A stretch of DNA of 64,000 nucleotides, from contig ONJF01000002.1 of NCBI GenBank assembly GCA_900318085.1, forward strand, positions 124,001 to 188,000. Direction: 5' to 3'. Position numbers and translations under genes: made by a program. Source of the stretch: an uncultured Bacteroidales bacterium. Its GTDB lineage: Bacteria; Bacteroidota; Bacteroidia; Bacteroidales; F082. Of this stretch, positions 8,802 through 31,331 are shown one piece after another. The notes beneath the pieces are model-generated. The model saw only the letters and a list, made by a program, of their open reading frames with translations. It ran no database searches and was not told the origin of the DNA. How positions within the stretch are numbered: position 1 is the first letter of the stretch; the number at the start of each line of letters is the position of its first letter.

Positions 8802-9359
8802 TTATTCCTCTGATTCTTCTTCGATAGTCTGCGCAAAGAAAGTGAAGTTTACTTTGCCGTAGTGACGTTGTTCCATGAAGTGAGGATGCTCTTCAAAGTT
8901 TTGGCTCTTGTCGTGTTCCAATACGAACATTCCGCCTTCGCGTAAAAGGTTGCGTTCAAAAATGAGTTGTATTAACGTTTCGTAATGTTCGCAGTCGTAA
9001 GGCGGGTCGGCAAAGACGAGGTCATATTGCATCTGGTGCTTGTCAAGGAAACGGAACACATCGGAACGGACCACAAGCAACTCCTTCATGTTGAGTTTGT
9101 TGGCGGTCTCTCGAATGAATTTCACGCAGCCGAAGTCCTGGTCGACAGACACTACCTTGGGACAGCCTCTTGAGACCAGTTCGTAAGAGATGTTGCCTGT
9201 GCCAGCAAACAAGTCCAAGGCTTCGGTCTCCTCGAAGTCGAAGTGGTTCTCAATGATGTTAAACAGGCTCTCCTTGGCCATGTCGGTGGTGGGGCGTACA
9301 GGCAAGTTGTTGGGTGCGGTGATTTGCCGCCGTTGATATCTTCCTCTGATGATTCTCAT
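8802..9359 (-). CDS. rsmD: 16S rRNA (guanine(966)-N(2))-methyltransferase RsmD
   Basis: The 185-residue protein starts MRIIRGRYQRRQI with the RPTTDMAKESLFNII block of RsmD. It has the SAM motif ALDLFAGTGNISYE and the catalytic DPPY motif (VFADPPYD) for base N-methylation. It methylates G966 of 16S rRNA during 30S assembly. It overlaps the upstream DUF3822 gene by 4 bases, indicating translational coupling. Confidence 0.95.
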   Translation of the reverse strand: MRIIRGRYQRRQITAPNNLPVRPTTDMAKESLFNIIENHFDFEETEALDLFAGTGNISYELVSRGCPKVVSVDQDFGCVKFIRETANKLNMKELLVVRSDVFRFLDKHQMQYDLVFADPPYDCEHYETLIQLIFERNLLREGGMFVLEHDKSQNFEEHPHFMEQRHYGKVNFTFFAQTIEEESEE

Positions 9360-24323: not shown

Positions 24324-25428
24324 ATTTGATTGGAATCTCTTTGAAGATGACCTCGACGGCATCCTCGTATTCCTTCAGTGCATTAAGCTTCTTTATCTTT
24401 CGCCAAACTACCTGCGGCTCTTCAAAGCTGTTCATCAGATACGACCACAGCTCCTTCATGCGCCCCAGCACCTTCGGGCTGCCACCGGCATGGTGCAGAC
24501 GGTCTTCATACAGGTCGAGGACGTAATTATGCAGACGTTCCGTTTTGTCGTGGTTGGGAGGGCACACGTTGTGTGTCCCAACGGGTTGCCCCTGTAGGGA
24601 CGCATTGCATGCGTCCGCTATGTTGTTTTTAATCTGTTCAGCCAAGAACGGATTTGCCAAAATGCCTCGTCCGAGCATGAACTGCTCAATAGTTTTGCAG
24701 GCTCCTGAGCCTGTCGAAGGACCGTCATTCAGAATACCATTAATCCTTATAAAGCTTTCCACCGAAACAATATCCCCATTATATACCAAAGGTGCATTAA
24801 TAGAAGGAATTAAAGCCTTAAAGCGTTCCACATCAGATTCTCCTTTGTAAAGCTGCTTGCCGATGCGAGGATGGATGATTAATTCGCTTATAGGATATTT
24901 GTTGAAGATTGGAATTATGGCATCAATCTCCTCCGGGCTGAAATACCCCAAGCGGCATTTCACACTGAACTTGATGTCGATTTCTTCGAAAATGCGCTCC
25001 AGCATGGCATCCACCTTGTCGGGGTAGGGCAGGAGGCCACTGCCACGTTTTTTATTGGCCACCCTCGGGAAGGGACAGCCCATGTTGAGGTTGATTTCCT
25101 TGTAACCAAGTTGTTGACATTGTTTGGCGAAGCGCAGGATTTCTTCTGCATCTGTACTAAGAATCTGCGGGGTCAGTGTCTCAACGTCATTACAGTGTGG
25201 GTCAATTTCTTCGCCTTGCAGGTTTTTGGCGTGTTCCTCCTTGTGGATACCTGTAAAGAAAGGAGTATAGTATTTGTCGATGCCACCGAAATGCCGCTTG
25301 AACACATTGCGGAAGGGCGCGTCAGTGATACCTTGGAAGGGACCTAACGACAACTGTATGGGGCGTTCCCTGCATGTCATACCGAGCGAGGTATGAGCGA
25401 GTGTATCTGTGCAGGTCTTTTCGCTCAT
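24322..25428 (-). CDS. tRNA-dihydrouridine synthase with three in-frame palindromic insertions
   Basis: The 368-residue flavoprotein has the Dus signature INLNMGCPFPRVANKK with catalytic Cys118, the FMN-binding ITDAPFR start region, ELIIHPRIGKQLYKG and PLVYNGDI. It reduces uridines in tRNA. Three segments look foreign to the family: residues 5-20 (hairpin DNA 25369-25415), ~236-244 (24698-24723, family D) and ~271-292 (24554-24616, two hairpins). All keep the reading frame. The ATG overlaps the lnt stop by 4 bases, so translation from the first element is likely. Which Dus subtype it is cannot be told. Confidence 0.88.
   Translation of the reverse strand: MSEKTCTDTLAHTSLGMTCRERPIQLSLGPFQGITDAPFRNVFKRHFGGIDKYYTPFFTGIHKEEHAKNLQGEEIDPHCNDVETLTPQILSTDAEEILRFAKQCQQLGYKEINLNMGCPFPRVANKKRGSGLLPYPDKVDAMLERIFEEIDIKFSVKCRLGYFSPEEIDAIIPIFNKYPISELIIHPRIGKQLYKGESDVERFKALIPSINAPLVYNGDIVSVESFIRINGILNDGPSTGSGACKTIEQFMLGRGILANPFLAEQIKNNIADACNASLQGQPVGTHNVCPPNHDKTERLHNYVLDLYEDRLHHAGGSPKVLGRMKELWSYLMNSFEEPQVVWRKIKKLNALKEYEDAVEVIFKEIPIK
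24554..24616. repeat. Double-hairpin element inside dus, family E
   Basis: Hairpin one: TTGGGA..CACAC / GTGTG.TCCCAA (24554-24581). Hairpin two: GGACGCA ttgca TGCGTCC (24598-24616). It is translated as about residues 271-292 of the dus product (QPVGTHNVCPP). Confidence 0.75.
24698..24723. repeat. CCTGAGC-type repeat inside dus, family D
   Basis: CAGGCTC CT GAGCCTG is a 7-bp hairpin (24698-24713) followed by TCGAAGGACC. It is translated as GPSTGSGA in dus. Related copies are at 20870-20897 and 41964-41983. Confidence 0.75.
25369..25415. repeat. Nested hairpin element at the 5' end of dus, family F
   Basis: The outer stem CCTGCA/TGCAGG (25369-25374, 25410-25415) encloses CATACC gagcga GGTATG (25378-25395). 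It is translated as residues 5-20 of dus (TDTLAHTSLGMTCR), a string I recognise from other translated Bacteroidota repeats. Confidence 0.75.
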
Positions 25429-27086
25429 TTTTTCTTGGCTGTTTTGGCCGTTTTCTTATTCTTGCCAAGATCAATGAATGTCTTGGCAATTAATGTAATG
25501 AGCATGACAAAAGTGAGGTAAACCGCAATGCGGCTGAGATAATCACCGTGTTTCGCATAGAAAGTAACGCTGGTGTTGGCTTTCAAAGTGGCGCGTATGG
25601 CATCAGGCACCCAGTAATGGGTCTGCTGCAATACGTCGCCGCGTTGGTTGATGAAACCGGAGCGTCCCGTGTTGGCAGAACGAGCGATGCAACGGCGACT
25701 TTCGATGGCGCGTAACTTTGAGAACTCAAAGTGTTGGCGATAGCCGGGCGTGTGGCCCCACCAGCCATCATTGGTGATGACGAAAAGCAGGTCGGCGCCT
25801 TTCTTGGTGAAAGAGCTGACATATTCACCAAAGGCCGACTCGTAGCAGATGGCAGCCCCAATCTTATGGTCGCCGAATGTCATCACTTTCGATTCTGGAT
25901 CTCCTTTCAGTGTGCCACGTGCGATGCCCATGGTGAGGCTGAAGTTGCGCAAGAATCCCATCCACTCGGGGATGGCTTCCACCGCGGGCGTAAGGTGCGA
26001 CTTGTTGCGGTGCTGCAAGCCGACGCTGTCGATGAGTAAGGCTGAGTTGTGGCAATAGTAGTATTTGTCGGTTTCACCCACCTGCCGCGCCGGGAAATCG
26101 TCTTCCATGCCTTTGGGCACCCATTCATAGGTGGTGCCTCCAATGACGAAAGCCAACTGCGGGAAACGACTGACATACCCATGCAATGTTTTGAGGGCCT
26201 TGGATTTATCAAGTTCATGAAGCCAGATGCCTTCTTGGATGGCCGATTCTGAACTGACGATAAACCGCGTGTTTGGGGTCACCAGAGGCAGCGAGAGATT
26301 AATGTTGTTTTGAATCACTTGGTCATAGAAATTGCTGTCGAACTGCTCGTTCCATGGGTCGCAGTTTTGCTGCACGACGATGACCTCGGTGTCCTCGCCT
26401 TGTTCCTCGTAGTGCTTATACATCGACTTGCTGATGACGATAGGCACGATGATGATGATGGCCTCAAGACCAATGCTGATTAAGATAGGTTTAGCTTCTT
26501 TTGAACTAAAGAATTGAAGAATGTTGGCAATCAAGATATTGACTAACAAAACCCAAAGAGTTCCCCCAGCCAAGCCCGTGTATTCGTACCATTGCACCCA
26601 GCTGACTTGGCTTGAAAAAACACCACCCAAGTTGAGCCAAGGCCATTTGACAGCCCAAATGTAGGTGAGCATCTCAAAGGCCATCCAATATGGAATAAGG
26701 AAGAAGTTACCCCATGGGTTGTTGCACACTTTCTTTTTTGTGAGATGGAACAGCCAAAATACAGTGGCCATGAAGATGGCATTGAGAGCCCAAGCCATGA
26801 TGGCGGCTGGTGTGGCATTCCATACCCACCACGTTGTGGCTGTGTTCCAAATCAAGAAGGCAAAGAAACCGAGCCAAAATACCTTGCCACCGTCGCCTTT
26901 TGCTGCACGGTCTTCGATAAGCAGCAGCGGTACGAATCCAATGAATATCAGTGGCACAACGCCCCATGTGGGCCATGCCGCTGTCAGCAAGCCGCCACTT
27001 AAGACAGCCAATAAAATATTGCGAGTTCGTAGTTTTGGAGCAGGACCTTGCGTCCTTTTCTCCTTCTTCGCTTTCTTCTTGTCCAT
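25425..27086 (-). CDS. lnt: Apolipoprotein N-acyltransferase
   Basis: The protein of ~553 residues has about six N-terminal transmembrane helices (LLAVLSGGLLTAAWP; VFWLGFFAFLIWNTATTWWV) and a periplasmic nitrilase-like domain. The catalytic triad is visible: Glu in VSSESAIQ, Lys in RNKSHLTPAVE, Cys in GAAICYESAFGE. A last helix precedes a very basic tail (GKNKKTAKTAKKK). It adds the third acyl chain to lipoproteins in the inner membrane. The start is set at ATG 27086 (MDKKKAKKEK), since a -7 box at 27114-27107 lies before it and the longer frame would begin upstream of that promoter. Confidence 0.93.
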   Translation of the reverse strand: MDKKKAKKEKRTQGPAPKLRTRNILLAVLSGGLLTAAWPTWGVVPLIFIGFVPLLLIEDRAAKGDGGKVFWLGFFAFLIWNTATTWWVWNATPAAIMAWALNAIFMATVFWLFHLTKKKVCNNPWGNFFLIPYWMAFEMLTYIWAVKWPWLNLGGVFSSQVSWVQWYEYTGLAGGTLWVLLVNILIANILQFFSSKEAKPILISIGLEAIIIIVPIVISKSMYKHYEEQGEDTEVIVVQQNCDPWNEQFDSNFYDQVIQNNINLSLPLVTPNTRFIVSSESAIQEGIWLHELDKSKALKTLHGYVSRFPQLAFVIGGTTYEWVPKGMEDDFPARQVGETDKYYYCHNSALLIDSVGLQHRNKSHLTPAVEAIPEWMGFLRNFSLTMGIARGTLKGDPESKVMTFGDHKIGAAICYESAFGEYVSSFTKKGADLLFVITNDGWWGHTPGYRQHFEFSKLRAIESRRCIARSANTGRSGFINQRGDVLQQTHYWVPDAIRATLKANTSVTFYAKHGDYLSRIAVYLTFVMLITLIAKTFIDLGKNKKTAKTAKKK

Positions 27087-27106
27087 TCCTTTTCTAAAAT
27101 TTCGGG

Positions 27107-27195
27107 CAAAGGTACGATTTTTTGTTGGCAACAGAATGGATACACCCGTTTTTCAACGAATCGTCCATTCGTATCACGAAAAAACCGTATCTTTG
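27107..27195. promoter_or_regulatory. Divergent promoters for lnt-dus and the kinase/PqqD cassette
   Basis: Minus strand TACCTTTG at 27114-27107 serves lnt. Plus strand TATCTTTG at 27188-27195 serves the HPr-kinase-like gene starting at 27212. Confidence 0.65.
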
Positions 27196-27211
27196 CAGAA
27201 AATTATGTCTG

Positions 27212-28081
27212 ATGAAGAGAACCTATCAAGTCGCGGGCCAGAAGTTTAGCTTGGAAATGCCCGATGGCAACTCCTATTGGAAGAGTATGCAGTCTTATGA
27301 GCCCTTTCTTGTGGAAGATGATGGGGAGTGCCTCTTCACTGTCAGCCTGCTTCAGAATCTTCCGGGCATTAGTGGCAAACAGTTCGTGAGGACCGATGAG
27401 GGCGAGTCGGATGGCTTGTATTTTGAGTTATCGGAGCTTAACGGCGAATGGCTTTTTGTCATGCTCAAACATGGCGAAGACCTGCCTTTGGTGTATCTCT
27501 TCACCGACAAGGCCTTCAAGCAAGGACGGATATATCTCGAGAGCGATGCCGTTTTTTTGATGCACACTATGCTGTTGCTGCTTTTTTCTCTTGCTACTGC
27601 CGGCCGTGGCGCTTTGATGATGCATGCCTCTGTGACTATGTGTGACGGCAAAGGCTACCTGTTTTTGGGTCGTAGCGGAACAGGTAAGAGTACCCATAGC
27701 CAGCTATGGATAGACAATATTCCTGGCTGTGAGTTGCTCAACGATGACAACCCAGTGCTTTACATTGATTCAGAAGGCATTATTCGCGTCAGCGGTACGC
27801 CATGGAGCGGTAAGACGCCTTGTTATCGCAATATTACCGTCCCAGTGGGCGCCATTGTCCGTATCCGACAAGCCAAGGAAAACAAGATACAAAGGTTGTC
27901 GTTTCCGGAGGCTTATGCAATTCTGTTCGCTTCCTATTCTGGATATCATGCCCTGCGTCAACTGGCGGATGGCTACCATGCCACTTCCGAAAAGGTTGTC
28001 ACTTCAGTGCCTTTCTATGTACTTGATTGTCTGCCTGATGCTGATGCCGCCTTCTTATGTCATAATACTGTTGCCCACTGA
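27212..28081 (+). CDS. HPr-kinase-like protein (RiPP-associated P-loop kinase)
   Basis: The 289-residue protein has the HPr kinase C-terminal fold: a P-loop GRSGTGKST at residues 153-161 preceded by ALMMHASVTMCDGKGYLFL, then LLNDDNPVL with conserved acidic residues, and SGTPWSGKTPCYRN. It lacks the N-terminal regulatory domain of true HprK. Stand-alone proteins of this type occur in lasso and other RiPP clusters, where some phosphorylate the peptide. The start is placed after the -7 box; 30 further upstream codons lack family similarity. The stop overlaps the next ATG. Confidence 0.85.
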   Translation: MKRTYQVAGQKFSLEMPDGNSYWKSMQSYEPFLVEDDGECLFTVSLLQNLPGISGKQFVRTDEGESDGLYFELSELNGEWLFVMLKHGEDLPLVYLFTDKAFKQGRIYLESDAVFLMHTMLLLLFSLATAGRGALMMHASVTMCDGKGYLFLGRSGTGKSTHSQLWIDNIPGCELLNDDNPVLYIDSEGIIRVSGTPWSGKTPCYRNITVPVGAIVRIRQAKENKIQRLSFPEAYAILFASYSGYHALRQLADGYHATSEKVVTSVPFYVLDCLPDADAAFLCHNTVAH

Positions 28082-28506
28082 TGGAAAAAACAGATAATAG
28101 TGCGAGGATGGAGCAATTGCTTGCAGAGGGCAAACAAGTCCAACTGACCCCTGTAGGAAGTAGCATGTTGCCTTTCATTCGTGGCGAAGTCGACAGCGTG
28201 GTGCTCCGTAAGCCCGAGTCACTTCGCGTGGGCGACATCGCCTTGGCACCCTATCAAGGAAGGTATGTGTTGCATCGTGTTATCCGAATCGAAGGCGATA
28301 CGGTGGTGATGATGGGCGATGGCATCGTGAAGGGGACGGAGAAGGTCGGCAAATCGGCAGTGTTGGCAATAGTAACAGAGATAGTCAAAGCGAATGGCCG
28401 ACATCGCAAACCCACTCGTGGGCGCTTGTGGAGACTCTTGCTGCCTGTCAGGCGCTATCTTTTGAAAGGCATGCGAAAATGGAATCAACTATTTGGAAAA
28501 CAATAA
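28081..28506 (+). CDS. S24/S26 (signal-peptidase-like) family protein
   Basis: The 141-residue protein has the S26/S24 motif VGSSMLPFIRGEVDSVVL with the nucleophilic Ser, then VGDIALAPYQGRYVLHRVI, where the usual Lys base of type I signal peptidase is not obvious (HRV takes this position, as in SipW-like and many RiPP-associated members). There is no clear N-terminal membrane anchor; the C-terminus is basic. It could process the peptide encoded at 30012, which is inference. It overlaps the kinase gene by one base. Confidence 0.82.
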   Translation: MEKTDNSARMEQLLAEGKQVQLTPVGSSMLPFIRGEVDSVVLRKPESLRVGDIALAPYQGRYVLHRVIRIEGDTVVMMGDGIVKGTEKVGKSAVLAIVTEIVKANGRHRKPTRGRLWRLLLPVRRYLLKGMRKWNQLFGKQ

Positions 28507-28519
28507 ATACACAATTAAT

Positions 28520-28789
28520 ATGAGAACGAAAAAAGGCTTGATAATGCGCACCTTGGGCAATGAGTTTATTCTTGTCGACGAGGGCTCCAATCTGACCGAT
28601 TTCAATCGCATGATCTCGCTCAATGCGTCGGCTGCGCTTCTCTGGGAAGCCGTACAGGACAATGAATTTGATGCTGCTGCATTAGTCGACATTTTGCTGG
28701 ACCATTATGACATCACTCGCGAGGTGGCCGAACACGACATCGACGCTTTGATTCTGAACTGGCGCGAAGCAGGGATTTTGGAAGAATGA
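28520..28789 (+). CDS. PqqD-like RiPP recognition element protein
   Basis: The 89-residue protein matches PqqD: NEFILVDEGSNLTDFNRMIS forms the beta region, NASAALLWEAVQ and ALVDILLDHYDI the helices, and AEHDIDALILNWREAGIL the C-terminal helix. PqqD-fold proteins bind leader peptides of ribosomally made peptides and present them to enzymes. ATG 28520 is used because the frame upstream only offers a TTG within the previous gene's end. It overlaps the nucleotidyltransferase gene by 4 bases. Confidence 0.87.
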   Translation: MRTKKGLIMRTLGNEFILVDEGSNLTDFNRMISLNASAALLWEAVQDNEFDAAALVDILLDHYDITREVAEHDIDALILNWREAGILEE

Positions 28790-29892
28790 ACATGACAACC
28801 TCGGAAGCGCATTACTTTTCATTAATGCAGGCGGCTTTATGGGGCACGCCAGTGAATCTTAATGGAGACGTTGATTGGCATGAGATTATGGGTATTGCCC
28901 GGTTCCATGCCACTACCACGCTCGTTGCCGATGTGGCTTTGCGTTTGCCCGAAGGCGATCGTCCTTCCGATGATAGGCAAGCCAAGTTAAAGGGTGCCCT
29001 GCGGTCGAACCTTTTCAGCCAAATCGAATCGAAGCAAATACTGACCAAGGTGGTGACCACACTGCGCGAGAATGGCATTGAGCCGGTGCTACTCAAGGGC
29101 TTCGGCCTTGCGCAACTCTATCCTAACCCCGCCTTGCGACAGTTTGGCGATAACGACTTGTTTGTGGGCTTGTCCTGTTTTCATGAGGCCTGCGCTTTGG
29201 TACGTTCGCTTCCTGGCGCATACACATGGTGCATGGAAGTGGATGCTGGACGCCACTATAATGTGGAGTTTGGTAAAGTAGTGTTTGAAATACACCGTGT
29301 CAGTGCCGAAATGACCGACTCGAAGGAGAATGCCTTGTATGCCGCCATCGAACATGATGGTTTGGTAGCGCATCTCCAGCAGATTGATCTTGATGGTTTT
29401 CCTATAAACATACCGTCTAAAGAGTTTATGGTGTTTTTCACCTTTTTCCATGCATGGCATCACTTCACCACTACTGGTGTGGGCTGGCGTCAGGTGAGTG
29501 ACGTGGCCATGGCCCTACATGTCTATCACGGGCAGATTGATCTCGACAAACTGCGCCAATGGTTGGAAACTATGTGTTTGATGCAGCCATGGCAGGCTTT
29601 TGGTTATCTCATCGTGAACTGTTTGGGTCTTCCTGAGAACGAGATGCCTTTCTTTAATGCATCGTGCCGGCGCAGGGCACAGAAGGTGTACCATCGTGTG
29701 ATGGCAGAAGGTAATTTCAGACGCCCCAACCGTTTCAAGAACCAAAAACCGAAAAACAAATTACTTCACAAACTACACGCTTTCATACTTGTCTTTATCG
29801 ATTTCTTTCACTTGGCAAGCGTGTTCCCACGATACGCTTTTAAGGAGTTGCGAAACTCCTTGAAACATGGGTTTAGAAAAAATCTTTTTTAA
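28786..29892 (+). CDS. Nucleotidyltransferase family protein (NTP_transf_5 type)
   Basis: The 368-residue protein has the nucleotidyltransferase core IEPVLLKGFGLAQLYPNP followed by RQFGDNDLFV, where the acidic pair in DND would bind metal. This is the uncharacterised NTP_transf_5 family, often found with HPr-kinase-like and PqqD genes in RiPP clusters. The C-terminal ~150 residues are helical and basic (RRPNRFKNQKPKNKLLHKLH). It may nucleotidylate a peptide or an enzyme; the substrate is unknown. It is the last gene of the four-gene overlapping operon. Confidence 0.83.
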   Translation: MNMTTSEAHYFSLMQAALWGTPVNLNGDVDWHEIMGIARFHATTTLVADVALRLPEGDRPSDDRQAKLKGALRSNLFSQIESKQILTKVVTTLRENGIEPVLLKGFGLAQLYPNPALRQFGDNDLFVGLSCFHEACALVRSLPGAYTWCMEVDAGRHYNVEFGKVVFEIHRVSAEMTDSKENALYAAIEHDGLVAHLQQIDLDGFPINIPSKEFMVFFTFFHAWHHFTTTGVGWRQVSDVAMALHVYHGQIDLDKLRQWLETMCLMQPWQAFGYLIVNCLGLPENEMPFFNASCRRRAQKVYHRVMAEGNFRRPNRFKNQKPKNKLLHKLHAFILVFIDFFHLASVFPRYAFKELRNSLKHGFRKNLF

Positions 29893-29929
29893 AAAATGAC
29901 TTTTTTCCACTGCGTATGAATTAATTTAC

Positions 29930-29937
29930 TACTTTTG
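29930..29937 (+). promoter_or_regulatory. -7 box (TACTTTTG) for the peptide gene
   Basis: TACTTTTG at 29930-29937 is a perfect Bacteroidota -7 element. A leader of roughly 70 bases precedes the peptide ATG at 30012. It shows the peptide is transcribed apart from the upstream operon. Confidence 0.65.
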
Positions 29938-30011
29938 CAGCCGATTTATAAGCACTTATTGGCTAAATATTTAATTAACAAACATAAGTAAAACCTTAAA
30001 AACTAACAAAA

Positions 30012-30125
30012 ATGAAAAAGATGAACAACTATGAAGCCCCTAAGGCTGAAACAATTGAAATGCTTAACAACGTGGTGGTTGTGATGTCCACTATCGGTGG
30101 TGGCGAGGGTGAGACAGAAGAATAA
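30012..30125 (+). CDS. 37-residue peptide, candidate RiPP precursor
   Basis: The short frame starts MKKMNNYEAPKAETIEM and ends STIGGGEGETEE. Its first half is amphipathic and leader-like (YEAPKAE is a recurrent start in small Bacteroidota peptides as I recall). A hydrophobic VVVV run leads to a Gly/Glu-rich tail that could be the core, with Ser and Thr as possible modification sites. It has its own promoter and is followed 50 bases later by a lipoprotein gene. Adjacent kinase, peptidase, PqqD and nucleotidyltransferase genes make a precursor role plausible. No double-Gly protease or maturase is adjacent, so this is inference. Confidence 0.65.
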   Translation: MKKMNNYEAPKAETIEMLNNVVVVMSTIGGGEGETEE

Positions 30126-30175
30126 GTCTAAAACTGCAAATTAAAACCATTAAAAACCAACAAAGAAGTTACGAG

Positions 30176-31147
30176 ATGAAAAAAATGAACAGATTATTTG
30201 TGGCATTGTTTGTTGCCGGTTCTTTTGCCATGCTGCTTGGCTCGTGTAAGAAAAACGATACTGCATCAACCATGACCATCGGATTGCCTCAATTTGAGGA
30301 GGAAATGGAAGGCAGAGCCTATATCGACATTACCAACAATAATTCCTTCAAGTGGAATGCTAATGACCAAGTGATGGCTTACAACATTGATGCCGCCGAT
30401 GGCACACAGACTGTCAAGGCCATTTGGAGCACCAATGCCAGCGCCGAAGGTAAAGCAACCGCCTCTTTCACGGGTCCCGACCTCGGCAGCAAAAAAGATC
30501 ATTACTTTGTTTTCTATCCTTGCGACAAGGTGGCTAGCGGTGAAGAACCTTTGGATGCGAACAACTTCGAGACCTTTACGGTGGCCGATCAACAAGACTA
30601 CACCCTTGTTAATGGCAAACCTACGATTGATCATGTCGGTATGGCTATGGCTTGCGAGACTTCAGACTTTAAGTCTTTCACGCTGAAGCACATCTTTGGT
30701 ACATTGAAGCTGAGACTGACTGGTTCGGGCAAAGTTACCAAAATCATTGTGGAAGACAAGAGATTCAATCTGAGCGGCAATGCGAGCATGAAGCTTCATG
30801 CAGTTAAAATGGGAAAATTTACCGCCCTGCAAACCCTTTTCGTAGGGTCAGATGATCCCTATACCAATACTACTTTCGTGAGTGATTGGAATTCTATCAA
30901 GAGTGACTTGAGCTACTCGACCCAAGGTGGTGGAAAGACCATGACCCTCAACTGCCCCAGCGTTCAGCTGAGCAGCACCGAGACCTTGTTCTTCATCGGT
31001 CTCCGTCCGGGCGCTCTGAAGTATGGCTACAAGATTTATGTGTACACCGAAGGTGCTAACGAACCTCAAGTGTTCGAAAATGCTGCTGATTGGCATTACG
31101 GCATCAAGGCTGGTGTTATTAAGAACCTTGCCCTTAGCCTGAACTGA
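30176..31147 (+). CDS. Lipoprotein, fimbrillin-like
   Basis: The 323-residue protein has a lipoprotein signal (FAMLLGSC, cleavage before Cys at ~24). The body is beta-rich with a weak FimA/Mfa-like pattern: FKWNANDQVMAYNI, HYFVFYPCDKVASG, KHIFGTLKLRLTGSG (the fimbrillin domain junction) and LRPGALKYGYKIYVYT. The exact family is uncertain. It shares the transcript of the 37-residue peptide; the link may be functional (presentation or immunity) or accidental. It ends at a strong terminator. Confidence 0.7.
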   Translation: MKKMNRLFVALFVAGSFAMLLGSCKKNDTASTMTIGLPQFEEEMEGRAYIDITNNNSFKWNANDQVMAYNIDAADGTQTVKAIWSTNASAEGKATASFTGPDLGSKKDHYFVFYPCDKVASGEEPLDANNFETFTVADQQDYTLVNGKPTIDHVGMAMACETSDFKSFTLKHIFGTLKLRLTGSGKVTKIIVEDKRFNLSGNASMKLHAVKMGKFTALQTLFVGSDDPYTNTTFVSDWNSIKSDLSYSTQGGGKTMTLNCPSVQLSSTETLFFIGLRPGALKYGYKIYVYTEGANEPQVFENAADWHYGIKAGVIKNLALSLN

Positions 31148-31166
31148 TTGTAAGAGTTACGAAAAC

Positions 31167-31198
31167 AAAAAAGCACCTCCTCGGGGGTGCTTTTTTTT
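31167..31198 (+). terminator. Rho-independent terminator after the lipoprotein gene
   Basis: GCACCTCC/GGGGGTGC stem with one wobble pair, A-run before and T8 after. Confidence 0.87.

Positions 31199-31255: not shown

Positions 31256-31331
<76 letters not shown>

Follow-up and report, generated by a model that had tools for sequence, protein, structure and literature searches.

Linear Polyphosphorylated Peptides (LPPs), reported from the lpp cluster of Paenibacillus alginolyticus (PMC13381572, Nat Commun, May 2026), are the closest described counterparts of the locus that we analyze here, which occupies positions 27188-31198 of a 64,000-nucleotide stretch of DNA (the window; contig ONJF01000002.1, assembly GCA_900318085.1) from an uncultured Bacteroidales bacterium and joins a cassette of four enzyme-like genes to a 37-residue peptide gene and a lipoprotein gene. 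The LPP set described there comprises a discrete RRE (recognition element for ribosomally synthesized and post-translationally modified peptides, RiPPs), LppB; a kinase, LppK; a signal peptidase I-like (SpI-like) peptidase, LppS, with catalytic residues S29, H68 and D93; a nucleoside triphosphate (NTP) transferase, LppN; and a transporter, LppD. LPP clusters have no macrolactam synthase and no lasso B2 protease. The precursor leader carries the motif YxxPxVLxHQxIxFETxxS, which LppB contacts through D70, binding the Tyr, and N33, fixing the Pro; the HprK-like LppK loads several phosphates onto one Ser, S3, which the leader consensus places 18 residues after the motif Tyr (Y+18); and the SipW-like LppS, aided by LppB, cuts off the leader after T-1. 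Deletion of lppN left the detected products unchanged in the test system, and the evidence includes mass spectrometry, mutants and crystal structures. The authors call LPPs restricted to Bacillota, although the matches to the peptidase are mostly, not all, from that phylum. No word in the accessible text begins with "Bacteroid", and a search of the open-licence literature, which leaves most subscription journals outside, found no published LPP-like system in Bacteroidales.

The locus in the window probably encodes a Bacteroidales pathway for LPP-like peptide maturation, with precursors paired with lipoproteins, a reading to which we give about three chances in four. Its computed support comes from gene content, synteny, joint absence, co-occurrence, invariant residues, a variable tail and the adjacency of the peptide and lipoprotein genes. 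Four of the features by which LPP systems are recognized are found in the cassette, namely an RRE with the Asn/Asp pair, a Ser-His-Asp peptidase, an HprK-like kinase and an NTP transferase. An earlier note, made from the letters of the window, had described an orphan RiPP-like locus; it is neither an orphan nor an unfinished lasso locus, and the LPP class is defined by just this set of enzymes (PMC13381572). The note's view of a RiPP-like locus with the peptide as likely precursor is supported, and of the modifications that it proposed, phosphorylation with no ring formation is the likely one. We do not file the locus as an LPP cluster because the full leader motif and a transporter were not found in it. 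The features are as follows.

27212..28081, plus strand: HprK/PEPCK-like kinase, LppK-like, ATG start (alignments, structure model, Foldseek)
28081..28506, plus strand: S24/S26 (SEC11/SipW-type) peptidase, LppS-like, Ser28-His65-Asp80 (invariant residues, SEC11A profile match)
28520..28789, plus strand: PqqD-family discrete RRE, LppB/B1-like (Pfam PqqD, TfuB1 match, Asn/Asp invariance)
28786..29892, plus strand: NTP_transf_5 nucleotidyltransferase, LppN-like (Pfam, alignment)
29930..29937, plus strand: TACTTTTG, conserved TAnnTTTG box of the peptide-lipoprotein unit (all 19 aligned rows)
30012..30125, plus strand: candidate precursor, 37 amino acids, leader about residues 1-25 (profile matches, alignments)
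30030..30041, plus strand: YEAP, a YxxP, predicted RRE-binding leader motif (Y and P invariant; role from PMC13381572)
30087..30089, plus strand: Ser26 at Y+19, predicted phosphorylation site (Ser at Y+18..+20 across the family)
30090..30122, plus strand: hypervariable Gly/Glu-rich tail, predicted core (comparison of peptide tails)
30176..31147, plus strand: lipoprotein gene adjoining the peptide, its product moderately like fimbrillin/type V pilin (synteny, structure model, Foldseek)
25425-27131, minus strand: apolipoprotein N-acyltransferase-like gene (Lnt), divergent from the kinase-led gene run
31167..31196, no strand assigned: intrinsic-terminator-like hairpin 3' of the lipoprotein gene (listed by the scan on the minus strand; by eye a terminator on the plus strand too)
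31256-31331, strand not stated: tRNA-Phe, just 3' of the lipoprotein terminator

The earlier note's gene identities and coordinates, the 37-residue peptide gene and the lipoprotein gene after it were all confirmed. Its four overlapping genes overlap at the kinase/S24 and PqqD/NTP5 junctions and not between S24 and PqqD: comparison with relatives moves the PqqD start to the ATG at 28520, so that PqqD trails S24 by 13 nucleotides. The claim that the peptide has its own promoter is supported by a TAnnTTTGC box upstream of the peptide ATG in 19/19 aligned rows, which represent 17 distinct loci; we take this box to be the Bacteroidales -7 element. A generic sigma-70 promoter scan was uninformative (5 matches vs 5.8 expected).

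The gene order is conserved well beyond the window. Of 60 relatives searched for the window PqqD, 18 have it, 15 of these being among the 36 genomes of the same genus, and the order Lnt / HprK-S24-PqqD-NTP5-peptide-lipoprotein recurs in 13 same-genus genomes (our own and 12 others), in all of which the syntenic peptide begins MKKMN and has a YxAP motif. When a species collection was scanned with a kinase profile, at least 589 relatives appeared at E<=1e-3; among the best 80, used here with loci at contig ends included, S24 lies nearby in 71, PqqD in 70 and both in 66, and four of these loci (L149, L151, L153, L154) add the window-like order. This makes 17 distinct loci with that order, and the peptide is present in 17/17. 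The count omits L150 (a repeat of G018) and L152 (a repeat of G012), which are both within the 19 aligned rows, and leaves G014, with a rearranged cassette, and G025, with a weak match, outside. The cassette of G014 has no adjacent peptide, and six peptides lie elsewhere in that genome. Two loci from other families show different arrangements, peptide-lipoprotein-HprK-S24-PqqD-NTP5 (L278) and PqqD-peptide-HprK-S24 (L279). The earlier note had proposed conserved co-occurrence of peptide and cassette as a check; it is borne out in the 17 window-like loci and in the order-wide tracking of the kinase described below, and it fails in most of the more distant loci and, as regards adjacency, in G014.

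Peptides and cassette also go together when whole genomes are compared. Profile A1, built from the 13 syntenic peptides, matches at E<=0.01 in 13/60 relatives, exactly those with the syntenic cassette, and 0/23 other genomes of the genus; in 8 of the 13, paralogues lie elsewhere in the genome, and our own genome has two on contig 52. A profile of 34 peptides (A3; E<=0.1), whose seeds, like those of the wide set A6, were hand-picked from profile matches, adds G014 with its six peptides and weak matches in G025, G047 and G054, all cassette-positive, the cassettes of G014 and G025 being variants; the only match in a cassette-negative genome (G015) falls within a 198-amino-acid frame. Across 247 genomes drawn evenly from Bacteroidales, the wide peptide profile matches 19 and the kinase profile 29, with the kinase in 15/19 peptide genomes vs 14/228 others (Fisher p=6e-13). 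All 19 matches were inspected. G205 was dropped, as its match has no YxxP, and G280 was kept, its real YxxP leader standing in a long frame, which leaves the kinase in 14/18 peptide genomes vs 15/229 others (p=7e-12). With the seed genomes G000, G047 and G054 removed the figure is 11/15 (p=2e-9), and at a kinase cut-off of E<=2.5e-30 it is 9/15 vs 5/229 (p=1e-9).

Joint absence points the same way. We ranked closeness within the genus by Lnt identity, which is not a tree; 16 genomes stand at >=74%, and three of these (G003, G030 and G022; 71%, 85% and 98% complete) lack both a window-type PqqD and a peptide match. In G003 the interval from Lnt to tRNA-Phe holds no cassette, peptide or lipoprotein. 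In G030 and G022 a homologue of the syntenic lipoproteins (E 3e-26 and 6e-34 with that of the window) adjoins Lnt with no cassette or peptide between them, the G022 contig ending soon after the lipoprotein. Since the lipoprotein is kept in these two relatives without cassette or peptide, the peptide goes with the enzymes and not with the lipoprotein.

This bears directly on the proposal that the peptide belongs to the lipoprotein, either as a helper in secretion or as a small protein of the envelope, and has nothing but its position in common with the enzyme genes. That proposal would fit the peptide's own promoter box, the paralogues that mostly stand 5' of lipoprotein genes and away from the cassette, the four genomes that have peptides and no kinase match, a single fused peptide-lipoprotein frame and the correlation of peptide and lipoprotein distances beyond the cassette (the last two are given below). 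We nevertheless judge it unlikely, given the two relatives that keep the lipoprotein and lose peptide and cassette together, the order-wide tracking of the kinase by the peptides, the L279 peptide placed between PqqD and HprK, and an invariant YxxP.

The peptide itself looks like a precursor. Every aligned peptide of A3 (34/34) and of A6 (29/29) keeps the Y and P of YxxP, both sets having been chosen from profile matches. A Ser lies at Y+18..+20 in 56/65 distinct peptides, these being the family peptides with YxxP at E<=0.05, and in 12/12 further peptides from other genomes (11 at +19, one at +20 only); the latter count, which we weighed in favor of the LPP-like pathway, is not blind because the profile covers that stretch. 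The closest relative of the window locus, L025 (G002), shows where the two differ: 60-nucleotide bins are 90-100% identical through kinase, peptidase, RRE and leader, apart from a single 88% bin where NTP5 ends, fall to 47% in the bin of the tail and 3' untranslated region, and range over 73-100% in the lipoprotein. Between these two loci the leader has 3 synonymous and 0 nonsynonymous changes and the tail 12.5 nonsynonymous changes over 23.5 sites, the last 10 residues differing at 7. Over ten leader codons in the 17 loci, the proportions of synonymous and nonsynonymous differences are pS 0.63 and pN 0.15. Taken together, the peptide at 30012-30125 is likely the precursor of the cassette.

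It could be argued that the small open reading frame (ORF) has no product and serves, as an upstream ORF, only to regulate the lipoprotein gene, as it stands 38-76 nucleotides 5' of that gene in 15/17 distinct syntenic loci. This seems very improbable for a frame conserved at the amino-acid level, which tracks the kinase, is lost jointly with the cassette and changes its tail while keeping its frame.

Several observations weigh against an LPP-like pathway. Among 74 more distant loci (L155-L228) a peptide recognized by the A3 profile lies within <=8 kb of the cassette in only 6, and peptides are thus scarce near distant cassettes. In the small intergenic ORFs of these loci the bare YxxP expression was not enriched (32/803, compared with 26 for F..P and 35 for Y..A); the family profile separates peptide members where this expression alone does not. 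Fifteen kinase genomes have no peptide match, four genomes (G073, G120, G201 and G274) have real YxxP peptides and no HprK match at E<=1e-15, and one peptide match (G205) was false. Nine of the 65 peptides lack the Ser, and 6 of these 9 are among the 17 syntenic ones, from the window's genus or its kin. Of the LPP leader motif only YxxP and the Ser are kept here, with no counterpart of the HQxIxFET part, and a search of our own genome for homologues of the L035 cassette exporter gave none at E<=1e-40. Every peptide seed came from cassette-positive genomes or loci, and seed loci may belong to genomes of the order-wide set. Co-occurrence within the genus does not amount to many events, because it largely concerns one group of close relatives.

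The enzymes of the cassette agree with their proposed roles. The kinase has weak family matches, both below cut-off (Pfam PEPCK E 0.0014, NCBIfam ScmC E 5.6e-7), and its alignments show SGTGKST (the P-loop), NDDNP and PWSGKTPCY as invariant or nearly so; its structure model (pLDDT 91.7) finds PEPCK (E 4e-7) and HPr kinase (E 8e-5) with Foldseek. An HprK-rel-A system was rejected as an identity, the TIGR04352 match having 16 bits only, and we found no paper on that system. The S24/S26 protein has a Pfam S24 match below cut-off (E 0.0029), S28, H65 and D80 invariant in 18/18 aligned sequences, and a profile that matches SEC11A (E 1.2e-4), a signal peptidase of the Ser-His type. It is likely the leader peptidase, an activity predicted by analogy with LPPs, whose leader is cut off by a SipW-like enzyme. 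PqqD scores 56.9 bits in Pfam (cut-off 23.4), and its profile matches the lasso B1 protein TfuB1 (6jx3; E 6.6e-6). Its Asn35 (28622-28624) and Asp73 (28736-28738), numbered N34/D72 in alignment A10, which omits the Met, correspond to LppB N33 and D70 by spacing only, and YxxP-binding lasso RREs share the Asn/Asp too; in two overlapping sets the first position is N in 24/24 and 70/72 and the second D in 24/24 and 71/72. The NTP_transf_5 protein scores 117.5 bits in Pfam (cut-off 31.2) and has D122 and D124 invariant in 16/16; its profile matched no PDB sequence at E<=0.01. The ratio pN/pS is 0.05-0.10 for HprK, S24 and NTP5.

Parts of the cassette also occur fused, as HprK plus S24/S26 in one 441-amino-acid frame (L201:7980-9305) and as S24 plus an ABC exporter in one 746-amino-acid protein (L041:1716-3956, in G047; Pfam S24 25.5 bits, cut-off 23.3). 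The second of these is a serine-peptidase counterpart of the C39-type peptidase exporters. An anti-phage defence role was rejected, as none of five proteins had a PADLOC match at E<=0.01.

The lipoprotein gene, which is the peptide's usual neighbor elsewhere as well, had been listed and not interpreted in the earlier note. It is the next gene after the peptide in 17/17 distinct syntenic loci. Two of the 21 genus paralogues elsewhere are at a contig end; 15 of the other 19 have a clear lipobox gene next, and the remaining four comprise one with a probable lipobox gene next, two with one a gene further and one ambiguous case, counts that were read manually and include near-duplicate paralogues. 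In a single case (G280, L303:1448-2557), one 369-amino-acid frame holds a YxxP leader with the usual Ser, a lipobox and a lipoprotein-like body; this frame, which we also weighed in favor of the LPP-like pathway, is either a peptide-lipoprotein fusion or an assembly error. Once the cassette is controlled for, distances between peptides still correlate with those between lipoproteins (partial Mantel 0.51, p 0.0002; 0.48, p 0.0006 without L025), which may arise because adjacent genes are linked. The lipoproteins form two groups, with a Ser at Y+18..+20 in 9/9 of the peptides of one and 2/8 of the other (Fisher p 0.002), and their pN/pS is 0.30.

The window lipoprotein has a lipobox, and its structure model (pLDDT 78.2) resembles the Bacteroides fimbrillin-like cell-adhesion proteins 3t2l, 3ufi and 4k4k (Foldseek E 1.9e-8 to 3.5e-7, prob 1.0), a moderate match in fold with TM-scores of 0.41-0.53 for the best three structures. 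Pfam found no family shared among 25 lipoproteins and no match for that of the window. Lipobox and fold together suggest, as far as a model allows, that the window lipoprotein is fimbrillin/type V pilin-like; the likeness concerns this protein alone.

Some peptide genes lie in other surroundings. In L108:6268-13540 (G012:C43) an NTP_transf_5 gene and an ABC exporter gene, with no PqqD, HprK or S24 seen adjoining, are flanked by two peptide-lipoprotein pairs, one of which has a different leader, YVEPTVRLVELE; L116 (G019:C48) has the same two genes, likewise without adjoining PqqD, HprK or S24, and one similar pair. Both G012 and G019 have a full cassette elsewhere. In G120, which has no kinase match at E<=1e-15, YxxP peptides (L283, L284) carry a Lys/Glu/Arg-rich tail ending SPFE and may depend on another RRE system. 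In G146 two near-identical YxxP peptides (L285:3421-3585 and 8927-9082) stand directly 3' of large secreted-looking proteins and not 5' of lipoproteins.

These elements suggest how the pathway might work. The PqqD-type RRE would grip the YxxP of a small precursor, as its motif and contact residues imply, and the HprK-like kinase would phosphorylate the Ser about 19 residues after the Tyr, Ser26 here, by analogy with S3 of LppA. The Ser-His-Asp peptidase of the S24/S26 type would then remove the leader next to that Ser, and NTP_transf_5 might, more doubtfully, decorate the phosphate. This would yield a linear phosphopeptide, short and variable, with no ring. Where a genome has paralogues, a single cassette is probably responsible for several scattered peptide genes, and the finished peptide probably acts with the neighboring lipoprotein at the envelope, because the scattered peptide genes mostly directly precede a lipoprotein gene. 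It is tempting to speculate further that one RRE-kinase-peptidase cassette matures YxxP micro-precursors in trans across the genome, each beside its own lipoprotein, that the phosphopeptide is the dedicated ligand, cap or donor strand of the pilin-like lipoprotein, and that tail and lipoprotein co-diversify for surface variation or recognition; we regard this fuller picture as possible and rather doubtful.

The same cassette might carry out other chemistry, its kinase and NTP transferase glycosylating or nucleotidylating the tail rather than (poly)phosphorylating it. There is precedent in pseudomycoidin, where a nucleotidyltransferase extends the phosphate by one or two hexoses (PMC8498205), and some of our peptides lack a Ser at the usual place. 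We think there is very little chance of this, the lppN deletion having changed nothing detectable in the LPP system (PMC13381572).

Lasso peptides are the other known systems with which the locus invites comparison. Lasso clusters of the paeninodin/pseudomycoidin type share an HprK-like kinase, an NTP transferase and a PqqD-type B1 with it (PMC8498205, PMC7533575), and have a cysteine-protease B2 that was not found here. In paeninodin the leader motif is WxxP, and G42/Q79 of its RRE, PbaB1, stand at the positions of the LppB Asn/Asp. One may ask whether our peptide gives rise to a cyclic RiPP, a lasso or another, with cyclase and protease encoded elsewhere in the genome. YxxP and a B1-like PqqD (TfuB1) are lasso features, and HprK and NTP_transf_5 are lasso tailoring enzymes (PMC7533575, PMC8498205, PMC13381572). 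The B2 protease PF13471 was searched at E<=0.01 in 24 genomes, our own included and 18 of them cassette-positive, and was found in 0/24, which agrees with the earlier note's statement that the transglutaminase-like protease is missing and led us to reject a lasso peptide with its maturase elsewhere. The lone-maturase check that the note had proposed is answered for this protease; PF00733 and radical SAM were not searched genome-wide. No cyclase or radical SAM family stands near the more distant cassettes among 25 of the 129 neighbor families, singletons lying outside these 25; the underlying scan took 206 same-strand ORFs, 140 after a size cut, of which 126 were scanned, with the L149-L154 rows left out. 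The cassette, moreover, already has a Ser-His-Asp peptidase, and we hold a cyclic product to be improbable. The cassette of L038 does have a radical SAM-like gene beside it, which by eye is the housekeeping gene rlmN.

An extension of the LPP-like class, months old and called Bacillota-restricted, to Bacteroidales, where the kinase family occurs in 29/247 genomes of the order, would be new in phylum, in the lipoprotein partner and in the scattered precursors. It names probable precursors for an enzyme set that otherwise resembles a broken lasso cluster and predicts the modified Ser. It also gives a lead to the function of LPPs: the peptide genes mostly lie 5' of lipoprotein genes, the window lipoprotein resembling a pilin, and two loci that are nearly identical in other respects have different tails.

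Set against the LPP systems (PMC13381572), the Bacteroidales systems differ in phylum and in having scattered precursors, mostly 5' of lipoprotein genes, and their Ser is mostly at Y+19 where that of LPPs is at Y+18. LPP clusters include an MsbA-like transporter and the window locus has none; an ABC transporter family is present somewhere in 52 of the best 80 of at least 589 HprK loci, as read by eye and in part by Pfam. A lasso B2 is absent in LPPs and was not found here, where the cyclase was not searched. A further likeness is seen in Butyrivibrio fibrisolvens plasmid pNP243 (L289:6581-8604), where an NTP transferase, ABC genes, an HprK-like gene, a 57-amino-acid YxxP peptide, PqqD and S24/S26 lie within 9 kb and the family profiles made here match the enzymes at E 4e-20 to 9e-36; it differs in being from Bacillota and in its two intervening opposite-strand genes, Cys/Pro-rich tail and glycosyltransferase genes, with no adjacent lipoprotein annotated. 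What the window locus shares with LPPs is a discrete RRE, an HprK-like kinase, a SipW-type Ser-His-Asp peptidase, an NTP transferase, a YxxP leader and a variable C terminus, and by this analogy the Bacteroidales cassette likely works as an LPP system does.

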